Made by a program: the position numbers and the translations under genes
The notes under the pieces: generated by a model
Databases searched by the model: none
The model's input: only the letters and a program-made list of their open reading frames with translations
What the model was told of the DNA's origin: nothing
Part shown: positions 1,757-57,462 of the stretch, in pieces
How the letters are laid out: each line of letters starts with the position of its first letter
Position numbering within the stretch: position 1 is the stretch's first letter
NCBI RefSeq assembly: GCF_009389715.1
Contig: NC_052399.1
Span: forward strand, 15,193,646-15,257,645
Length of the DNA stretch: 64,000 bases
Direction of reading: 5' to 3'
From: Phoenix dactylifera
Lineage: Eukaryota > Streptophyta > Magnoliopsida > Arecales > Arecaceae

Positions 1757-4700
1757 ATGGGAGAGTTCCTCCCTATTCTTCCGATAGCTTCTGTACTCGC
1801 GGTCCTGCTGTTCTGTGGGCTGAAGGCGTTCTACTCCCTATGGTGGAAGCCCAAAGCTCTGGAGAAGCAACTAAGGGAGCAAGGCGTCCGAGGCAATCCT
1901 TACAGGATCCTCTATGGGGACACGAAAGATGAGATACGAGCCGCGAAGGAAGCATGGTCCAAGCCTATCGCTCTCACCCATCATATTGCGCCACGGGTGG
2001 CACCGTTCGCTTATCAGACAGTTCAGAAATACGGTAAGAAAACTGCTGCTTGATTTGGATACCGTCATGATATACCGGCATCACTTGAAGATTTGATGCT
2101 TCTTCTTGGGTAATTTGGGAGCACAGGGAAGACATCCCTGGTGTGGTTTGGAACAACTCCGAGGGTGATTCTGTGGGACCCACAGACGATAAGGGAGGTG
2201 CTGTTGGATAAGCTGGGCCAGTTCAAGAAGCCACCGTTTAACCCTCTGATAAGGCTTCTAGCCAGGGGGGTCTCCAGTCTCGAAGGAGAGGAGTGGGCAA
2301 AGCGACGGAGGGTCATCACCCCGGCCTTTCACCTTGAAAAATTAAAGGTTTTGGAATCCTACTTCCTTTGCCTCCTAGTAAACAAGAGACCTAAATTGAT
2401 CCGATCGGAAAAAAAAAAAAAAATTTCCTTCAACTCAATCTCTCTTTAAAAAAAACTAGAAGAAGATGAAAGAATTGCGAAAGTAGAGTGTAATCTCCTT
2501 TTCTTTCGTTGATGTTCTTAAAAACTAACGTACATAGCCGTTACACAATTTAGGTTGAATTCATCTTTCTAGTTTTGTTGGGATTTTTTTTCTATCTGCT
2601 TTCGTCAGATTTCTCTTCCTAATCCTAGTAGGACTTTTTTTCTTAAAATAGATATTACTAGTAGAAATCTTTAAGAAAAAGCTAAAATTTTTGAGGAGGT
2701 AGTCTCGACTTCTAAATCAACTTTGCCTTTTATTGCTCTACATAATTCTTCTTGAATAGAGAGATACATTTAATCAAAATCTTATCTGAAAAGAAAACTT
2801 TCGGTTTGACCGGCCCATTTTGGGCTCCAAACGATAGAATTTGGACTTGATCGCTATGGGCCGCCCCCTAAAGGGCAGACATCATGTTGTATATCTCGAA
2901 AAACTGTCTGATTTTAAAAAAAAATCATCTCAATCGAACGTCGTACAACCAAGTTATGGCCTCCAGAAGTTTGGCCTGCAACTCAGCTTTCCGATGTGGC
3001 GAATCTTGCTCCTAAACCTTGTCTAGCCATGTTCGTAGTACCAAAATGTTTCATATCAATCTAGGGATCCTCTTGGATCATAAATATAGCATAAATGTAA
3101 CTTAACTTTCTAATGCTATTAATCGCTAGACTAAGCTAAGTAACCATGCATGGGATGGGATATAATACAATTACCATTCACCACTAGGAGTCTCGGAAGA
3201 AAAGCTTTTATCTTAACATCATTCGCAGTGTTGTCCTAAAACAAAGGCTTTCTTGACTTCTTTTTTGTTGACAATTTGCTAATCAAATTGCCAATAATAT
3301 AGATGGGACCAACTAAGAGTGGTAGAAAAAGTTTGTTATTTAGAGGAAAATTCATAGGAAATTGCAAAGTGGTGGTGCTTGTTCAAGCCATCAACTCCAA
3401 CAATGTTCTTATATTCATTATACTTGCTGACATTATAGATGAATGCAACAAACTTTAGTCAGAACTCTTTTTCTGCTGATTGAATGCATCCCCTTTTATA
3501 ACATTAATATTAAACGAGACTTAATAACTAAACTTGGATAACAAAAGATCTGCGGTGGAAAAATCCAGGCAACAGTGCTGTGCGTGTGCGTTTGTGTCTG
3601 TTAAATAGAATGTAGCGAGTAGTTCTTGCGTGACATTTGTTGGTTACAGGGAATGGTGCCTGCCTTTCTGATCAGCTGTGTTGATTTAATAAAAAGATGG
3701 CAGAACTTAACTAGCACTGAAGGATCTTGTGAGATAGACATTTGGCCTGAGTTTCAGAATCTGACAGGAGACGTGATCTCTCGAACAGCCTTTGGAAGCA
3801 GCTATGAGGAAGGAAAGAAAATATTTGAACTACAAAAGGAGCAAGCTGTCCTGGTCATAGAAGCTGCCCGAGTCCCCTATATATCAGGATTCAGGTGAAA
3901 TTATTATTATTATTATGATTGTATGATGCACGTGTATTCTCTGTTAATCAATAAGATAGATCTAAACACATAAGAGATCTAATAAACATAAATCCCAAGA
4001 CCTTCAACTATCATGCTTTTCACAAATATAAATATAAGGCTTAAGTAATTTAGAAGACATACCGGAATCCATGAGAGTAAGTCTTCTTCTTCTTGTTGAA
4101 ATCTTTAGAGTAGACACTATGATTTCTCTCACTTAGCCCTCAATTCATATACACCAAAATGATGGAGATAGTGTTCATTTATAGGGTAGAGAGAGGACCA
4201 CATTTCCAACCTTCTACATACCATAAGACTCTCCACCGTCCATCAAAGTACGAGTTCCAAGAGGAAATTAACTTCTCACAAATTTGACCATTAACACACT
4301 TTATGGGAAATTGAAAGAGCCAAGTAACTTAGGAGTCAAATAAACCAAAAGTCATTCAACATTTTGGTCATGTGGGACATAAAATATCTTACACTCTCTT
4401 CCATATTAGATGGTCTGGTTTACGTACTTAATTCAGATTCTTTTAGCATTCATTACGTACTCGGTGCAGATTCCTTCCTACTGCAAAGAATAAGAGGAGA
4501 ATGCACATAGACAGAGAGATCAAGACCATGCTAAGAAATATGATTGAAAAGAAGTTGAATTCCATGAAAATGGGAGGATCTCTCGGCTCCGACTTGCTTG
4601 ACTTGTTGCTGCAGTTCGGTAATAATAGTGATCAGAAGAACTATAGTATTACTATCGATGAGGTGATAGAAGAGTGCAAGCTCTTCTACTTTGCTGGTCA

Positions 4701-25374: not shown

Positions 25375-28300
25375 TTAGACTTTGCGGAGTATGATCTGAG
25401 CTCCATGTTGTGGTTGAACGGTAAGAAGATAGTAAGGAGAGTGAATATAGGTGGGTGAGAGCTCAAATGAGAAGTGCTGCAAGATCATTGACAGAGCAAG
25501 CTTTGCTTCTATAAGGGCAAAGTTCTGGCCCACACAGGCTTTTGGCCCCCAGCCAAATGGGAAGAATGCCGCTTGCTTCTTTGAAGCGTTTGAGACGCCC
25601 CTGGAAAACCTCTGTGGTTTGAACTCTTCAGCATCTGTGCCCCAGATCTCAGGATCATGGTTGACAAGAAGTGTAGGCAGCAAAAGGTTCGCACCTGCAG
25701 GGAGAGAGACCCCTCCGATCTTTGATCTTCTATATGTATACCGGTATTGAATGGGCACCGATGGATATAATCTTAAAATTTCATGTAGTATTATGTTTAT
25801 CTGTGGAAACAATTTGCAGTTGTAGCTAAGAAGCATGTCCGGTCAGTTATATACATCTCGATATCATTATTGGTTCTCAGTCCCTTTGAAAATAAATATT
25901 CTGATGAATGAAAACATTACTTTAGACTAGAAACTATGATTGATTCTTCAAGGTATCTTGAAATAAATTTATCAGAAGCCAAATTCATGAGGATAATTTG
26001 ACAAGATGGATGAACCTGATCACCGTGCATAACTTAAATTCTACAGCAATTCTAGACAACATGAGGACTAAACCATGATGGAAAAAGAGAAAGGTAAAAC
26101 TTCAATATAGACAATCTTTGGAGGTTTCCGTGTCAGGTCAAATATACTCCATGAGTTAAAGCAGATCCATGGGAAAAAGAAGTGGGTGAAATTTATTTAT
26201 TTGTTCTTTGCCACAAGCAATCAGCAGAAAAGATGGTGAACAGTTTTGCAGGATAGAGATAATTATTTTGGAGTACCCCAAGTTATGTTGATCACTCAGC
26301 CTCTAGCCTTGAAAGTGAATGGGTTATGAGAACATCAAAGCTAAACATTTAAAAGCATTTCAAGAATGCGCAGATGGAATAAGATCCTGAGTTTTTTTCA
26401 GTCAAATTGCAAGGTGAGGGAAGCCTCCTTATGAAGTGAGATCATGTCATGTTTGAATGATCTGATTCATCAAGATCGGGAAGATAAGAAGATCTTGTAT
26501 ACAGAAAGTTAAGCAACTAAATAGCTCGGTTCCTCGCCAATCATAGCCTTGAAGGCTTGTAGCCTCATCTTATCGTTTGCTGTCAGACCTGACTTGATGT
26601 CGGATCCAAAGCAAAGGCAAATACAATCTGTTCAAGGAAACGGTCATAGTTGTATGTTTATTTTTTTCTTTGCAAACCCCCCTCAAAATAAAAAGGGAAA
26701 AAGAAAAAGAAAACATTCTTTGCAGACAAGATTCAAATTGCATAGTTATTAACTGATATGCCTCAAGTCAATCCCCATCCAGTTTAATCCATAGATGAGC
26801 AAAAAGAAACTACTAACAACTCCATTATTCATTAGAAATGAGAAAAATTAAATGCTGCATAAAACACTTACAATCTTAAGTTCGCCTATGCTTTCAAAGT
26901 TTGGTGCACTTCTCCCTAATATCTTTAGAACCTCTTCCCGTGCTCTGTCTTGCCATATTGGATTCATAGCAAGGAGAACCATTGTCCACGTGAGCAAGAC
27001 AGAGGTAGATTCATGTCCAACAAAATAGAAAAGCTTGCATTCCTCCATCACCTCTTCAGTTGTCAAACCTTTGAATCTTGAATCATTAACATGTGTTTGC
27101 TGATCACTACAGTTGGATTGCAACATCAAGCCCAACAGATCATCAATTCTGCAGTCTCGCATTCTAATAGCTAGTTCTTTCTTTTTGATCAAATCTCTCA
27201 GCAAGGCTTTGATTTGTACGTCCAAATGCTTTACATGCTTATTCTTTTTCGTCGGTAAAAATCTACAAAAGAACACAAGTATCACTTTACAAGGTCCACT
27301 GAATTTATTAAGTTTTTTTTGTCATACTAGCAGAATTTTTTTCATTCATACAACTAGCAAATCTCCACCTATTTGTTTTTTTTTGTATATAGTTTACTTT
27401 TTTGTGGGTGTAAGAGAGTATATCTGACCCAGGAGGAAAATTTGTGAAAAGATCTGCAGCAATACCAAGACTGAAGATTAACTCTTCCTAATGAATGAAA
27501 ATTTTCTTACTAGGATCCTAGCATCAAAATTTTCTTATTCATCTTTTGCCAATATTATACTTACTAGGATATCCTAATTATGATCTTGTTATCAATAACT
27601 GCAAGTTCTAGGAGTGTTTCTTACCTCCATCCCAATAGTAGTCATTGGAGTTGGCTAGTGAGGTAGAGTCTTGTTCTTTTTGTTTCCCTCCATTTTTAAG
27701 TATAATTAGAAGGGGAGCATACATGATTTAGATATAAAGGAACTTATCATATACTTGGGCCCCAAAAAGCAATGCCAACAAAGAAAAGAAATTAAACATT
27801 AGTATGCTTTTTTTAAAATTTTCTAAAAAGGAGGTGATGGAACTTAAAAAGGAAGAAGCTTTCACTGCATTGGGTGAAAATGGAACTCTAAAAATACAAA
27901 TCAGTCAGTTTGAAGGTAGATCTGGAAGTTATCCGAGCAAGCAAAAACGTTCTTAAAATTCTGAATCCAGAGACATGACTTTTCTTCTTAAAAATTGATT
28001 TTTATAATTCATGACCAAACAAGTCCTAGATGTAGCAGTGTTATCCAACTAATGATGCTTCTCCACTGCATCGTCAGTAGAAGCTTGATGGAGTTTTGAC
28101 AATGTAAATGATAAACCATCAAAAATCACATAGTTGACAGTAAACTGAAATTCAGTGAATAATATAAGGGAAAATGTCCAATTACACAGCGTAGGAAATT
28201 GGAATGCACCTAAATCCTGGAATATATGGCATTTGCGATAATTCAAGGATCAATGCGATCTGTTCCCTTTGAAGCTGGAATATTCTTTGGCCTTCTATGT

Positions 28301-49648: not shown

Positions 49649-50389
49649 ATGCAGAGAGACCGAAGATTCTTTTCTAAGAAGGCTTCCCGATCTCGTGGTT
49701 ATGAAGCGGGCAGCTGTGCTCTTGACTCTCCTGCTGGTGCTTGTGATACTGATGCTTCTGCCGCTGCACCTTCCTTTGGGGAAGCTCTCACAGGCATGAA
49801 GCATCATGAATTCCCTGTTCCGCTTAATGGAGTTGAGTTCCAGCCCTCTGAAACCTGTCCTAAGAACTTTGTCATCTTCGACCAGACATATAACAAAAGC
49901 CGGGTCATGTTCCACCCTTCGTTAGCCCACAATTTTGGCTCTTCGAGCTTTGGCGTCCATGGAGCTCATGCCCATGAAGCTGGCAAAAGTACGGTTGGAG
50001 ATTACTACAACGCAGGAGAATATTCCTCGCCTCACATAGAGGATGCAGAAGATATCGATGCATTGCTGAGTTCAGAAGAAGATGATGATGTGGTCAGCAC
50101 TGGCCGGACTCCGGGCAATTGGGGCGGCGGCAGTTCGCCAGATTCTTCATGTTCATTTTCGGATGGAATGAGATCTAGCAAGTTGAAGTTCAATTCTACT
50201 AATGCCGGCAGCGGCAGCGGTAGTGAGAGGAAAAGGGAGAAAATGAAGAAGATGGTTAAAACACTCAGGGGAATCATTCCCGGTGGAGACCGGATGGATA
50301 CACCTGCTGTTCTGGACGAGGCTGTTAAGTACCTGAAATCCCTCAAGGTGGAAGTGAAGAAGCTTGGAGTGCAGAATCTTGACAGCTGA
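49649..50389 (+). CDS. SAC51-type atypical bHLH transcription factor, 246 aa
   Basis: One coding exon. The C-terminus (about 190-240) is a bHLH: SERKREKMKKMVKTLRGIIP, then PAVLDEAVKYLKSLKVEVKKLG. The basic part lacks the residues needed for E-box contact, as in the SAC51/SACL group, which acts with thermospermine to limit xylem differentiation. Upstream are the FPVPLNGVEFQPSETCPKNF block, an acidic DAEDIDALLSSEEDDD stretch typical of the group, and a Ser/Gly-rich linker. The spliced uORF in the leader predicts translational control. The start is the first ATG of the long frame, with several short uORFs in between. Confidence 0.88.
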   Translation: MQRDRRFFSKKASRSRGYEAGSCALDSPAGACDTDASAAAPSFGEALTGMKHHEFPVPLNGVEFQPSETCPKNFVIFDQTYNKSRVMFHPSLAHNFGSSSFGVHGAHAHEAGKSTVGDYYNAGEYSSPHIEDAEDIDALLSSEEDDDVVSTGRTPGNWGGGSSPDSSCSFSDGMRSSKLKFNSTNAGSGSGSERKREKMKKMVKTLRGIIPGGDRMDTPAVLDEAVKYLKSLKVEVKKLGVQNLDS

Positions 50390-52409: not shown

Positions 52410-52851
52410 GTTAAAATCAAAAAAAAAATTTTGTTGCCTGATTTAAGGTCAGTCAAAGAACCAGTTTTTTTACGTGTGCTTAAGTATCCCGCTGGTTGAA
52501 ACAACAGGAAATCGCCTGTTACTTTAAAGATCGGCATGGAGCACGTGATGTGGGACATGAAAATTGTTTCCTCTGTATTCCTAGCGTACTCATTAAGTAA
52601 GCTTACATCAATTAGAGATCCCTTCAATATTTTTTTCACTGTAACTGATAGAATACATACCCTCATTATTACATGCTTGCGCAGGTTTAGTTGCGTGACC
52701 TCATCAAAGTTGACATTAAGTTTTTGTACAGCTCATCTTGTCACCGTCATCAGCCAAAACCTGCTCCTAGGCTTAGAGCCGGGAGCCTTGTGATGATTGG
52801 GTTTCATGTCATTTTCCCTTGCAGTTTATACGGGGTGGCTAACTCATCACA

Positions 52852-53473
52852 GGGTAGTTCTAAATACACCCCCCCCCCCCCCCCCCCGATTGCTCAGGAC
52901 ACCCCCCAAAAACAAAAAAAAAAATTACCCAAACTAACCTTTAGTGTAATTACCATTTTACCCTTAAAATTTTCTCAGTACACCCCCCTTCCTCCTCCTC
53001 CGTCTCCTCCTCCGTTTCGTTTTCAAAAGAAAAAAAAAAAACACCCTCAAATCCCCCTTAAACCCCTCGATCCATTTACATCGTTTAGGCGATCTTTGAA
53101 GGAGATTTAAGCCCCATTCGAAGCATGGACAAGCAACTAGTGATTTGGGACGAAGAATCGGCCGCAAAGGTACGTGTTCCACCTTGTTTCGAAAGTTTTT
53201 TTTTTTCACGGTTCGTGCTCCGTTCGGCACTGGATCGCCGAACAGAAGGCTTCTGTTCGGCTGCATAGTGCCGAACAGAAGCCTTCTGTTCGGCAACCCT
53301 CAGCCGAACAGAAGCCTTCTGTTCGGCTGCACAGTGCCGAACATAAGGCTTCTGTCCGGCACACTGCAGCCGAACAGAAGGCTTCTGTTCGGCACTCTGC
53401 AGCCGAACAGAAGGCTTCTGTTCGGCACTCTGCAGCCGAACATAAGCCTTCTCGTGCCAAATCGCGTGCCGTG
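52852..53473 (+). repeat. Left terminal inverted repeat of the MULE
   Basis: Outer 50 bp and inner part (about 53215-53473) are inverted copies of the right end. The middle (52960-53210) does not align to the right TIR and contains the first transposase exon. A C-run of about 20 bp is at 52870-52887. Confidence 0.85.
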
Positions 53474-53877
53474 AATTTTGTGCCGAACAGATCCTCTGAT
53501 TCATTAATTCTTGGTGATAAATTATTTTATATAGGTGCAAAATTACGAGGTATTATAATATATTGTGCAATTTTGTATTAGTTTAGCGAGCTATTTTTAC
53601 AACTGTGTACTTACATAAATTGTTTAATGTATAGATCTTCAAGAGTAGAGAGGACTTGTGTAATTGGTGTCGTGAAGCTGGGAGGCGAAATGGTTTTGTT
53701 GTTGTAATCAAATCATCCGATGCAGGTACCATTTCTAAGAAACCCAGAATTACGTTAGGTTGTGAGAGGGGTGGGACGTACCGAACCACAAAAGAAAAGC
53801 GAATAAAGACTGCCTGTGGGACAAAGAAGTGTGGATGCAGTAGAGTTACAATTAGCGAGACAGTAGAGTTAGATTGA
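53125..53877 (+). pseudogene. MULE transposase N-terminal remnant (FAR1-type zinc finger)
   Basis: A possible first exon at 53125-53169 (MDKQLVIWDEESAAK, then GTACGT) and second exon 53635-53877 after ATAG (IFKSREDLCNWCREAGRRNG, FVVVIKSSD, PRITLGCERGGTYR, GTKKCGC). This is the WRKY-GCM1/FAR1-type zinc-finger start of MULE transposases. It ends shortly after GTKKCGC and never reaches the DDE domain. Its last codons and stop lie in the 66-bp direct repeat that borders the captured segment. The 33-bp palindrome array falls inside the intron. Confidence 0.75.
53237..53459. repeat. Left palindrome array, seven 33-bp units
   Basis: Units start at 53237, 53270, 53303, 53336, 53369, 53402 and 53435. 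Each is a 25-bp near-palindrome (GCCGAACAGAAG, a central G or C, then CTTCTGTTCGGC) plus an 8-bp spacer such as TGCATAGT or ACTCTGCA. The last unit is degraded. Open frames across it are repeat by-products. Confidence 0.95.
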
Positions 53878-53930
53878 TTGTTTATATATGTACAATTTTT
53901 TAAAGTTGTAAATTTTTTTGGGCTCTTAGA
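53865..53930 (+). repeat. 66-bp direct repeat, left copy, bordering captured segment
   Basis: Starts AGAGTTAGATTGATTG and ends GGCTCTTAGA. Equal-length copy at 54452-54517 with two or three mismatches. The pair brackets 521 bp of captured sequence. Confidence 0.92.
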
Positions 53931-54147
53931 CCTTTCTGATGTACAAGAACTTAACGGTGACAAGCTTGAGCAGATGATTAACACATTTGGTGGGTTTGAT
54001 CTGGTTATTGGTGGAAGTCCATGTAATAATCTTTCAGGTAGCAACCGCTATAGTCGTGATGGGCTGGAGGGTAAACATTCATCTCTTTTTTATGATTATT
54101 TTCGCATCTTACACCTTGTGAAATGTATCATGGGGAAGAACTTCTGA
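53931..54147 (+). pseudogene. Captured fragment of a DRM-type DNA methyltransferase
   Basis: The frame gives LSDVQELNGDKLEQM, FGGFDLVIGGSPCNNLSGSN, RDGLEGKHSSLFYDYFRIL and VKCIM, then a stop. This is the C-terminal catalytic part of the DRM (domains rearranged methyltransferase) family, including the Pro-Cys catalytic motif in GGSPCNNL. DRM2 is the de novo methyltransferase of RNA-directed DNA methylation. Only about 72 codons are present, with no S-adenosylmethionine-binding N-terminal half and no UBA domains, so it is not an enzyme. It could be expressed as RNA with the rest of the element. Confidence 0.85.
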
Positions 54148-54244
54148 TTGCACCATCTCACTTTCTTGTTGAGCAGGCATCATCATTTCTGAAGGAAAAG
54201 TTGAGCAGGCATTATCATTTCTTTTGTTGGAAAAGAGGGCTCTG

Positions 54245-54456
54245 TGATGTCCTTGGTTAAGAGGTTAATCGGCTGCCCTCTCCTTGCAAGGCCAGGTCTT
54301 GCCACTGGCACCCTCTTAGGCTTTGCTGCCTTTTTTGGAGGGGAACTTTGTCCAGGGTCAGCTTTGATTGGAACAACATTTGGAGGTACCTCAGAGGGAG
54401 GTGGAGGCAGAACATCAGTCGTATCAGATTCAGGGTCAAACCCCCCACGGGAGAGT
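54245..54456 (-). pseudogene. Captured fragment of an AGO4-clade Argonaute N-terminus (antisense to the DRM fragment)
   Basis: The minus strand reads GFDPESDTTDVLPPPPSEV, PPNVVPIKAD, PKRVPVARPGLARRGQPI and NLLTKDI. The order LPPPP, PPNVVPIKA, RVP-A-R-G, RGQ-I-LLT is the N-terminal entry of plant AGO4-clade Argonautes just before the N domain. Usual LLTNH is changed to LLTKD, after which the similarity stops. It lacks PAZ, MID and PIWI, so it cannot act as an Argonaute. AGO4 binds 24-nt siRNAs in RNA-directed DNA methylation. Confidence 0.8.
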
Positions 54457-54517
54457 TAGATTGATTGTTTATATATGTACAATTTTTGAAAGTTGTAAAT
54501 TTTTTTGGCCTCTTAGA
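54452..54517 (+). repeat. 66-bp direct repeat, right copy
   Basis: Partner of 53865-53930. The DNA after it (54518-54717) is AT-rich and leads to the 3' end of the plant mobile domain gene. Confidence 0.92.
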
Positions 54518-54717
54518 GTCATGTACTGTGAAACTCCATCATCAATATAAATCAAAAAATATCTGTATTCGCATTGTTAGATTGATTGTTATGTGCACTG
54601 TTGTATTTTCGTAAAATAGAACGGGCCAGGCCTTACAAAGATTACACGTAAATGTACCAAAAATATATATTTTTCATTAATATCAAAGGCTTTACAAAGA
54701 TTACAAAGGCTCCATCA

Positions 54718-56632
54718 TCAATCCCTATGACGCCATCGTCGACGCGTGTACTGCTGTACGTCCGAATGAGAGGGTCCTGGATCCGAATGAGAGGGTGCTG
54801 TACTCGGGCCAGGCTCATCACCCAGAAGTACCTGATGCATCTGAGAAATAGCATCATATAGGTGCCCGGCACCTAGTGACGTAGCCTCTGGGCGACCCAT
54901 CCGTACAATGTCGGTACTGATACCGACTGCATCTGCAATACGCCGCCGGTGCATGTCAGCATCATCATGACCTCCCCTAGCTCCAGAATGAGTACTCGAG
55001 CGCAGATGAGGAGGCTGAACTGCAACGTGCGTGATACGGAGATACCACTCCATATATCCCGGTACGCTGTCTGATGGCCGGGTAACTGGGTGGCTCCTGC
55101 TCGCCTGGCTCAGCACGTGGTCCTCCCACCGCTCCCAAAGCTGATCCATATAGGAGTAATGTATCCGGTACGAGCCTGCTGTGGAACCTCTGTTGGCTCG
55201 CGTAGGGGCTAGTGGCGCTCGAGGGATGGTCTGAATACGACCAAACTGTCTAAGAACCCTTTCTGGATGATAGGGTTCTACGATATCAAGGCACTTGATG
55301 GAGCCAGTAAAAAATGCGACGGGTATATATGGGCGATCTCCCCGAAGCCGATGATGGGGATCCCAAATAACCTGCAAAACAAAAGGTACATTTCAGTTTT
55401 ATACTATATCGCATATTAAAAGTACTGACAAACACAAGCAAATGGTAATATGATACGTACCTCATCGATGCTCAAAAGGTCCAAGTACTCACGTAGAACC
55501 ACTAAATGGTCCATCGTGGTACGGGATGGAGTGCCGGGCATCCAGCGGTGCACGCGGGGACTGGCATCAGTATACTCGAGCGACGGGTGAGGACTGAGTG
55601 CAGGAAAATGCTCATAAATCCATGCCTGCAGAAGCGTCATATAACCACTGATCTGTCTCACTGATGACCTCGACGCAATCCCCAACTGCCGATACAAATA
55701 TGCTAAGGCAGCTGTACCCCAGGCATATGTGCTCACCCTATCCAGATCCCGCAGTAAACACAGATACGCTATAGGCACCCTGGTCCCACTCTTATCAGCA
55801 AAGAGTGTGCAGCCTAACAAAAATAACAAATAGGCTCGTGCTGCACACTCTATCCTCTGCTGGCTGTCTCTATCAGATACAGAGTGAAACTGAGTCCTCA
55901 GCCACTCCATCCTCACAGACTGACCGCGCGATGACAGTACCTCCTGACGCGCGTCTCCAGCTGACACCCCCAACAACTCCACAAGTAGCTCCTCAGCATC
56001 CCGATCACTCATCCTCTCAGGAGAAACTGATACTGAGGAACCTGCGACTGGAATCCCTAAAATGGCGGATACATCATCCAACGTGATAGTGATCTCGCCA
56101 AATGGTATATGGAAGGTGTTCGTCTCGGGCTGCCATCTCTCTACGAAGCCCGAAATCAGAATCTTATCGATGAATCGATAAGAGCACTGCACTAACTCTA
56201 CGAGGCCCGACTGCCTCAATAGTGCTCTGAACCTGGTATTTGGTTGGTTTGAAGACCACCACTTCCATTCACCAACCTTGGCAGTATGGTTCATGCACTT
56301 GAGTGGAGCTCGTTCCTGTAATATAAATGTATAATTACTACTACTTTATAAAACATCAATAAACAAAATATAATGCTATAACAAATAAACAATACCTGTT
56401 GCCTCCAGATGGAAGCTGCTATATGCGTCCTGAAACTGATCAGGACGGACTCATCCTCTGGACCTCCTGGACATGGTCCAACGGGCTCATCGTCTTCGCC
56501 CCTAGCGGGCATATCATCATGCTCTGACTCAGGAGAGTCCGATGGCATATGAGCAGGCTCGGGAGAAGCAATCCTAGCACGACGTCTCCTAGCTGACGCC
56601 GTAGGTCTAACTCTGGCGGGACGGGGATCCAT
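54718..56632 (-). CDS. Plant mobile domain protein (MAIN/MAIL1-like), 581 aa, three exons
   Basis: Minus-strand exons are 56632-56396, 56315-55461 and 55371-54718, with GT/AG ends, all phase 0, 1746 nt. Residues 1-75 are disordered and Arg/Pro/acidic. From about 80 it reads ERAPLKCMNHTAKVGEW, then VERWQPETNTFHIPFGE, TITLDDVSAILGIPVAG, ECAARAYLLFLLGCTLFADK, YAWGTAALAYLYRQL and RWEDHVLS: the plant mobile domain (PMD-C; aminotransferase-like) in full. Cellular members MAIN and MAIL1 form a complex with the phosphatase PP7L and help silence transposons. Transposon-borne PMD genes are known in MULEs. The frame is uninterrupted and starts 57 bp inside the right TIR. Confidence 0.9.
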
Positions 56633-56688
56633 GTCTGAAAATATAGAAATTCAATGTTAGGCTACATCAAAGAAAATAATTCAATTGG

Positions 56689-57453
56689 CACGGCACGCGA
56701 TTTGGCACCGGAACCCTTCTGTTCGGCTGCTCAGAGCCGAACAGAAGGATTCTGTTCGGCTGCTCAGAGCCGGACAGAACCATTCTGTTCGGCACTGTGC
56801 AGCCGAACAGAAGGCTTCTGTTCGGCACCGTGCAGCCGAACAGAAGGCTTCTGTTCGGTTGAGTGTTGCCGAACAGAGGGCTTCTGTTCGGCACTGTTCA
56901 GCCGAACAGAAGGGTTCTGTTCGGCGATCCAGTGCCGAACGGAGCACTGGAGGCAGGGGGGTGGAGCTACCTCGACGTGGTCGTGGAGGCGCCGGCGAGG
57001 TGCTCGTTGCTCGGGAGATGGCCGGGGAGGTGGTTCCGGGAGAATGCCGGCGACGAGAGGGAGAAGGGGAGAATGCCGGCGACGAGAGGGAGAAGGGGGA
57101 ACGGGGGGGTTTTGGGCGTTGGCGAGGTGCACTGCACCGACCGGCGACGAGAGGAAGAAGGGGGAGACGGAGGGGGTTTGGAGGGGCTTGAGGTGCTTGA
57201 GGCGAAGTTTTTTGGGCGGAAGGGAGAAGCCGGCTGGAGTGGTGTTTTGGAGGGGAAGAGCGGGGTGGGGGGGGGGTTTGGGGGGTGTAGAGAGCAATTT
57301 AGGTGAGGGGGTGGGGAGGGTGAAGGGTAATTTAGGATTTTTCAATTTTTTAGGGGTGTCCTTAGCAAATGGGGGGGTGTAGAGAGTATTTAATTTTTTT
57401 TTAATTTTTGGGGGGTGTCCTGAGCAATCGGGGGGGTGTATTTAGAACTACCC
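56689..57453 (-). repeat. Right terminal inverted repeat of the MULE
   Basis: Inner part mirrors 53215-53473, outer 50 bp mirrors 52852-52910. The middle (56950-57360) is a G-rich insert with no left counterpart. It contains a 28-bp tandem duplication built on GAGAATGCCGGCGACGAGAG (about 57041 and 57069) and may be another captured genic fragment. Confidence 0.85.
56703..56925. repeat. Right palindrome array, seven 33-bp units
   Basis: Units at 56703, 56736, 56769, 56802, 56835, 56868 and 56901, with the same 25-bp near-palindrome and 8-bp spacers (TGCTCAGA, ACTGTGCA and others). The count equals the left array, but centres and spacers differ. Confidence 0.95.
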
Positions 57454-57462
57454 CTCATCACA

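Follow-up and report, generated by a model that had tools for sequence, protein, structure and literature searches.

Why would a DNA transposon carry pieces of two host genes of RNA-directed DNA methylation (RdDM), one for a methyltransferase and one for an Argonaute? The question is raised by a 4,602-bp Mutator-like element (MULE) at positions 52852-57453 of the 64,000-nucleotide stretch of date palm (Phoenix dactylifera) contig NC_052399.1 analysed here (hereafter the window). The element is an internally deleted copy of a MULE; in longer members of its family, a FAR1-MULE transposase gene and a gene for a plant mobile domain (PMD) protein on the opposite strand point towards each other. In the gap between these two convergent genes, the 3' end of host DRM2 and part of exon 1 of host AGO4B lie head-on, and this cassette has multiplied along with the element. 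Taken as a whole, we regard as probable the reading of the window element as a member of a two-gene MULE family with an internal deletion, carrying the multiplied DRM2/AGO4B cassette and encoding a PMD protein that would resemble VANC21. The latter is an anti-silencing factor of another MULE, to which PMD is likened by its predicted fold.

Structure of the window element

The element is bounded by a perfect 9-bp target site duplication (TSD), whose two sites are its only occurrences on the + strand of the window, and by terminal inverted repeats (TIRs) whose 21-bp end occurs twice in the 64 kb at up to 3 mismatches, with none expected by chance. An initial annotation of this DNA had proposed a Mutator-like element with a perfect 9-bp duplication, and the TSD pair, with a length inside the 8-11 bp range of MULEs, and the TIRs bear this out. 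From left to right, the element comprises a predicted transposase exon 1, an intron with the left palindromic array, a truncated exon 2, the transposase C-terminal end, the DRM2 piece, the inverted AGO4B piece and, on the opposite strand, the PMD gene. Its parts, including untranslated regions (UTRs), are:

52843-52851, left TSD, CTCATCACA, 9 bp
52852-52927, + strand, left TIR, including a C run
53125-53169, + strand, predicted transposase exon 1 with GT-AG splice pattern; same piece in relatives
53237-53426, left array of six 25-bp palindromes with a 33-bp period, within predicted transposase intron 1
53635-53877, + strand, truncated transposase exon 2, a FAR1-like start joined by deletion to the C-terminal end (ISETVELD, stop)
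53865-53930, + strand, 66-bp repeat copy 1, transposase 3' end and 3' UTR
53927-54170, + strand, DRM2-like 3' piece of the host, coding for C-terminal residues, with stop codon at 54145-54147 followed by the start of the 3' UTR; its first 4 bases overlap repeat copy 1
54171-54252, joining sequence between the DRM2 and AGO4B pieces
54253-54452, - strand, AGO4B exon-1 piece of the host, codons 3 to 68 and 2 nt, antisense to the DRM2 piece
54452-54517, + strand, 66-bp repeat copy 2, 64/66 identical
54718-55371, - strand, PMD exon 3
55461-56315, - strand, PMD exon 2, with the VANC21-like predicted fold
56396-56632, - strand, PMD exon 1
56736-56925, right array of six 25-bp palindromes with a 33-bp period, upstream of the PMD start codon
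57391-57453, - strand, right TIR
57454-57462, right TSD, 9 bp, same as left

The transposase remnant (53125-53877), which like the antisense orientation of the AGO4B piece does not appear in the initial annotation, is of the FAR1 type. Before the break, 59 of 60 residues of the truncated exon 2 match FAR1-MULE transposase P0126, and a Pfam search alone gave no hit for the FAR1-like remnant in the window copy. A MULE-domain transposase is found in relatives: three 7.3-kb elements (L013, L017 and L018) combine the cassette with an open 394-aa transposase exon, which in L018 scores 94.5 bits for MULE (cut-off 27.6) and 28.2 bits for FAR1 (cut-off 28.1). Of these three, L013 and L018 have an open PMD frame and L017 a broken one.

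Like Pack-MULEs as characterized in the available text of PMC6446971, the window copy carries host gene fragments and has no transposase gene left, most of that sequence being deleted. It differs from them in that an intact accessory gene (PMD) is retained and in that the same two host pieces also occur in copies keeping the transposase exon. With the MUDR-group and related MULEs, in which PMD is often antisense according to the portions at hand of Dupeyron et al. 2019 (PMC6446971) and Ikeda et al. 2017 (PMC5418596), the family shares the 9-bp TSD, the TIRs, the MULE transposase of its relatives and a PMD gene facing the transposase. As far as these sources describe them, it departs from such elements by the host DRM2 and AGO4B pieces lying between its two genes.

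Origin and spread of the DRM2/AGO4B cassette

Both identifications of host fragments made in the initial annotation, a DRM-type methyltransferase and an AGO4-type Argonaute, proved correct. The best PDB hits of the DRM piece are plant DRMs (E 3.5e-32); 70 of its 71 residues are identical to a Phoenix dactylifera DRM2-like protein and it matches the host gene (C1:6486385-6487533) at 98.4% identity over 244 nt. Likewise, the AGO4 piece shares 64 of 65 residues with a P. dactylifera AGO4B-like protein, and 198 of 200 nt with the gene in its own genome (C1:27569048-27572654). In longer copies the match to AGO4B spans 211 nt, starting 5 nt ahead of the start codon and ending shortly after codon 68, with one silent difference in L012, L017, L018 and L030 and differences at two sites in L013. 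From a set of 499 24-mers of the block, 137 match DRM2 and 146 match AGO4B exon 1 perfectly. The cassette sits between the 3' ends of the transposase and PMD genes; seen from the transposase side DRM2 is in sense and AGO4B in antisense orientation, and from the PMD side the reverse applies. Both donor genes lie on one contig, 21 Mb apart, for which contig size alone gives a chance of about 5%. Much of the joining sequence at 54171-54252 is also present in DRM2-only copies, in an insertion near host nt 1751.

The initial annotation took this for a single element, a view that genome searches of the palm's own assembly (773 Mb) did not uphold, revealing instead a multicopy family. The search with the DRM2 protein scored 74 of 91 candidates and listed 75 matches. 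Leaving out the gene itself, the second row of the C322 locus and two divergent matches (C3:6150138, 47%; C16:3540815, 65%), there are at least 71 DRM2-fragment loci outside DRM genes, the window included; of those listed, 31 extend to the C-terminus, while in 40 the piece is shorter and lies around residues 465-543. For AGO4B exon 1, 53 of 175 candidates were scored, making the count a lower bound: 43 loci outside AGO genes were listed, and six window-type copies absent from that list raise the total to at least 49. Of the 43, 38 are beside a listed DRM2 locus and two more beside a DRM2 piece among the fetched loci, and the remaining three are C23:2102749, C778 and C91. Thirty DRM2 loci were fetched, one of which is the DRM2 gene; in the other 29, family sequence adjoins the DRM2 piece, and the other loci probably also lie inside family elements. 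Among its grounds for giving up its reading, the initial annotation had named a lack of related elements with the DRM or AGO4 pieces coupled with a lack of transcripts or siRNAs; the genome search found related elements carrying both pieces.

The TIR end has at least 42 matches in the genome, and since just 40 of 903 candidates were scored, the TIR family must be larger. Seventeen further regions were taken from these matches (rows 2 to 16 plus two from lower down), a choice that leans to window-like copies, and 13 of them hold complete elements, which gives 14 with the window copy. The TSDs of these 13 are perfect and all different in 12 cases and agree at 8 of 9 bases in the thirteenth. Seven complete elements bear the cassette (the window copy, L009, L010, L013, L015, L017 and L018) and seven do not (L011, L014, L020, L021, L023, L024 and L025). 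When compared with cassette-free L024 and L021, the 12 complete elements hold no extra DNA of 50 bp or more other than the cassette, although host DNA common to both references would escape such a comparison.

How often were the host genes captured? At each of the sites that they span, all 33 DRM2 copies analysed differ from the host by one common set of silent changes (S507S, L544L, F591F), hence DRM2 was most likely captured once. A midpoint-rooted tree of PMD exon 3, for which 36 of 43 loci could be used (supports not shown), separates two clades, one made up of the 19 DRM2-only copies and the other of the 17 copies that carry either both pieces or neither. The DRM2-only copies retain more DRM2 sequence. 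The simplest order, in a direction that we infer, would be a capture of DRM2 followed by that of AGO4B into a DRM2-bearing element. On the palm scale both captures are recent, since the pieces differ from date palm by 1/65 (AGO4B) and 1/71 (DRM2) residues versus 8/65 from Cocos AGO4B and 6/71 from Elaeis DRM2.

One copy, L044 (C1:10480410), holds the DRM2 3' end and much of its 3' flank, to about 1.5 kb past the stop and with a gap; the match runs to the end of the fetched host stretch and the other end of L044 is outside the fetched region. It is perhaps the copy closest to the original capture. In L016 (C261:230300-239300), near nt 580 of the locus, two family ends abut head to head, perhaps because one element inserted into another or back to back with it. 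L018 (C33) has a 251-aa open reading frame downstream of its MULE exon (element nt 3049-3804); this frame, with equivalents in L011, L013 and L024, reads ADGNCGFRAIADLLGFGEDD, which we take to resemble an OTU protease motif; a Pfam search of this frame gave no hit at E 0.01.

The PMD gene and its predicted fold

The PMD gene was rightly annotated as intact. It consists of three exons separated by GT-AG introns and encodes 581 aa with no internal stop, matching Pfam PMD over profile positions 1-346 of 347 (E 1.6e-73; 248.3 bits, cut-off 34.9). The initial annotation counted it as a third captured silencing gene alongside the DRM and AGO4 pieces. The two latter captures stand, while PMD does not fit as one: its closest protein match reaches 55% identity, the best among 120 rows listed, versus about 98% for the captured pieces, and the available text of PMC6446971 lists an antisense PMD for most MUDR-group MULEs. 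On these grounds PMD most likely belongs to the MULE family as a standing accessory gene and is not a third independent capture, leaving two captures rather than three.

A recent capture of PMD from host MAIN or MAIL1, with the product competing with the host gene, is accordingly a very improbable explanation. PMD proteins do include MAIN and MAIL1, and a host origin of MULE PMDs is proposed in the part of Ikeda et al. 2017 (PMC5418596) available. Against this stand the 55% identity, a list of 120 rows in which no palm protein is named (four rows being nameless) and the co-occurrence of PMD and the transposase exon, seen in 9 of 14 complete elements.

The predicted structure of PMD shares the VANC fold, its single significant match among solved structures being VANC21 on DNA (9lnj). 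VANC21 is the anti-silencing protein of VANDAL21 (Hiun; PMC5735166; 9lnj). No sequence match was found between PMD and VANC21, a comparison that covered VANC21 as deposited in the PDB, and the date palm family differs from VANDAL21 in having TIRs. To what is described for MUDR-group MULEs, the family adds a match of its predicted PMD structure to VANC21; a PMD-VANC link may already be in print with the VANC21 structure. The likeness also suggests specific DNA binding as a possibility for the host silencing proteins MAIN and MAIL1, in which the same domain occurs.

Tandem palindromic arrays are present in all 14 complete elements. Folded as RNA, the left array by itself (53200-53480) would make a very stable hairpin (-199.5 kcal/mol, z -22), which might serve as a Dicer substrate were it transcribed.

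Counter-defence or passive cargo

We propose that the PMD protein would bind the tandem palindromic arrays of the family, one within intron 1 of the transposase gene and one preceding the PMD start codon, and would relieve family members of silencing in trans. This PMD part of the counter-defence idea put forward in the initial annotation gains support from the fold match to VANC21, and we see even chances of PMD working in a VANC21-like manner. An anti-silencing role of MULE PMDs was already speculated on by Ikeda et al. 2017, in the part available (PMC5418596).

The cassette could add a second layer. Given its opposed orientation as read from the two convergent genes, convergent transcription could give double-stranded RNA: transcripts running through the cassette from both genes would pair and might yield small interfering RNAs (siRNAs) lowering host DRM2 and AGO4B. 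That cassette siRNAs would lower either host gene seems doubtful to us, and a full two-layer counter-defence, in which a VANC-fold PMD strips silencing while cassette siRNAs act against the RdDM methyltransferase and Argonaute, is improbable. RdDM genes are, as a rough figure, a few in a thousand plant genes, and a second RdDM capture in the same lineage would therefore be unlikely by chance.

The closest parallel comes from rice CACTA transposons with miR820, likewise DNA transposons multiplying an apparently DRM2-derived piece; the available text of Nosaka et al. 2012 (PMC3459959) reports that miR820 arises from a fold-back precursor and was shown to lower OsDRM2. Unlike these elements, as far as that text describes them, the date palm cassette shows no special hairpin and adds an AGO4 piece. 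Among the titles listed in literature searches, none reports a MULE with DRM2 and AGO4 cargo. To our knowledge, no transposon aimed at both an RdDM methyltransferase and an Argonaute has been described.

Small RNAs from the cassette could also act the opposite way, recruiting silencing to the family itself and perhaps methylating the donor genes, an epigenetic conflict, or the likeness to essential genes could shield the element from silencing. Captured fragments are regarded as siRNA reservoirs silencing related TEs (transposable elements) and donor genes in the part of a 2026 review available (PMC13317346), where their possible camouflage is also described, and the 146 perfect AGO4B 24-mers would suit either role. 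Silencing of the element by its own cassette is at odds with the multiplication of cassette copies to at least 49 loci, and we consider this explanation unlikely.

Several observations weigh against counter-defence as a whole. The DRM2 frame is not conserved, a stop (N513*) being common to 15 of 33 copies, and the cassette block has no special fold (z -0.71; in 4 of 20 shuffles the fold was equally good or better). Rice miR820, the precedent for a DRM2-derived weapon, depends in the text available on a fold-back absent here. Nor is the cassette needed for spread, as 9 of 18 TIR-selected loci lack it and 9 have it. Among 12 PMD copies the changes look neutral (34 nonsynonymous and 10 synonymous, for a neutral expectation of 2.49 to 1), with three stop codons in all and the frame intact in ten; judged by these counts, no purifying selection is visible on PMD within this young family. 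A sequence profile built from 54 PMDs hits no chain in the PDB at a cut-off as loose as E 10, likeness in predicted fold is no demonstration of common function, and the arrays may be transposase sites instead. Finally, the double RdDM capture is a pattern noticed after the fact.

It is a matter of balanced odds whether the cassette is passive cargo, with pieces of DRM2 and AGO4B copied by chance during gap repair into a successful MULE and multiplied only through it, and with a PMD that serves transposition rather than anti-silencing. Gene-fragment capture is usual for MULEs in the available text of PMC6446971, and the decay of the DRM2 frame, the neutral PMD changes and the loci that do without the cassette all agree with it. 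Additionally, the 71 loci are not 71 independent events, because all cassettes trace to one DRM2 capture. Harder to reconcile with mere cargo are the two successive captures, both from RdDM genes, the absence, from the 12 compared elements, of any further added stretch of at least 50 bp, and the predicted VANC fold of PMD. Counter-defence and cargo bear on two wider questions: are silencing genes captured by transposons for use as weapons, and what is the function of PMD proteins that transposons encode? Both can be tested in one family, with cassette-bearing and cassette-free siblings in one genome, PMD genes 99% alike and located donors.

Elsewhere in the window, a possible SAC51-type bHLH coding exon, with Pfam hits below cut-offs, is located at 49649-50389, about 2.5 kb left of the insertion, and a cytochrome P450 C-terminal exon occupies 25375-25836 on the minus strand.

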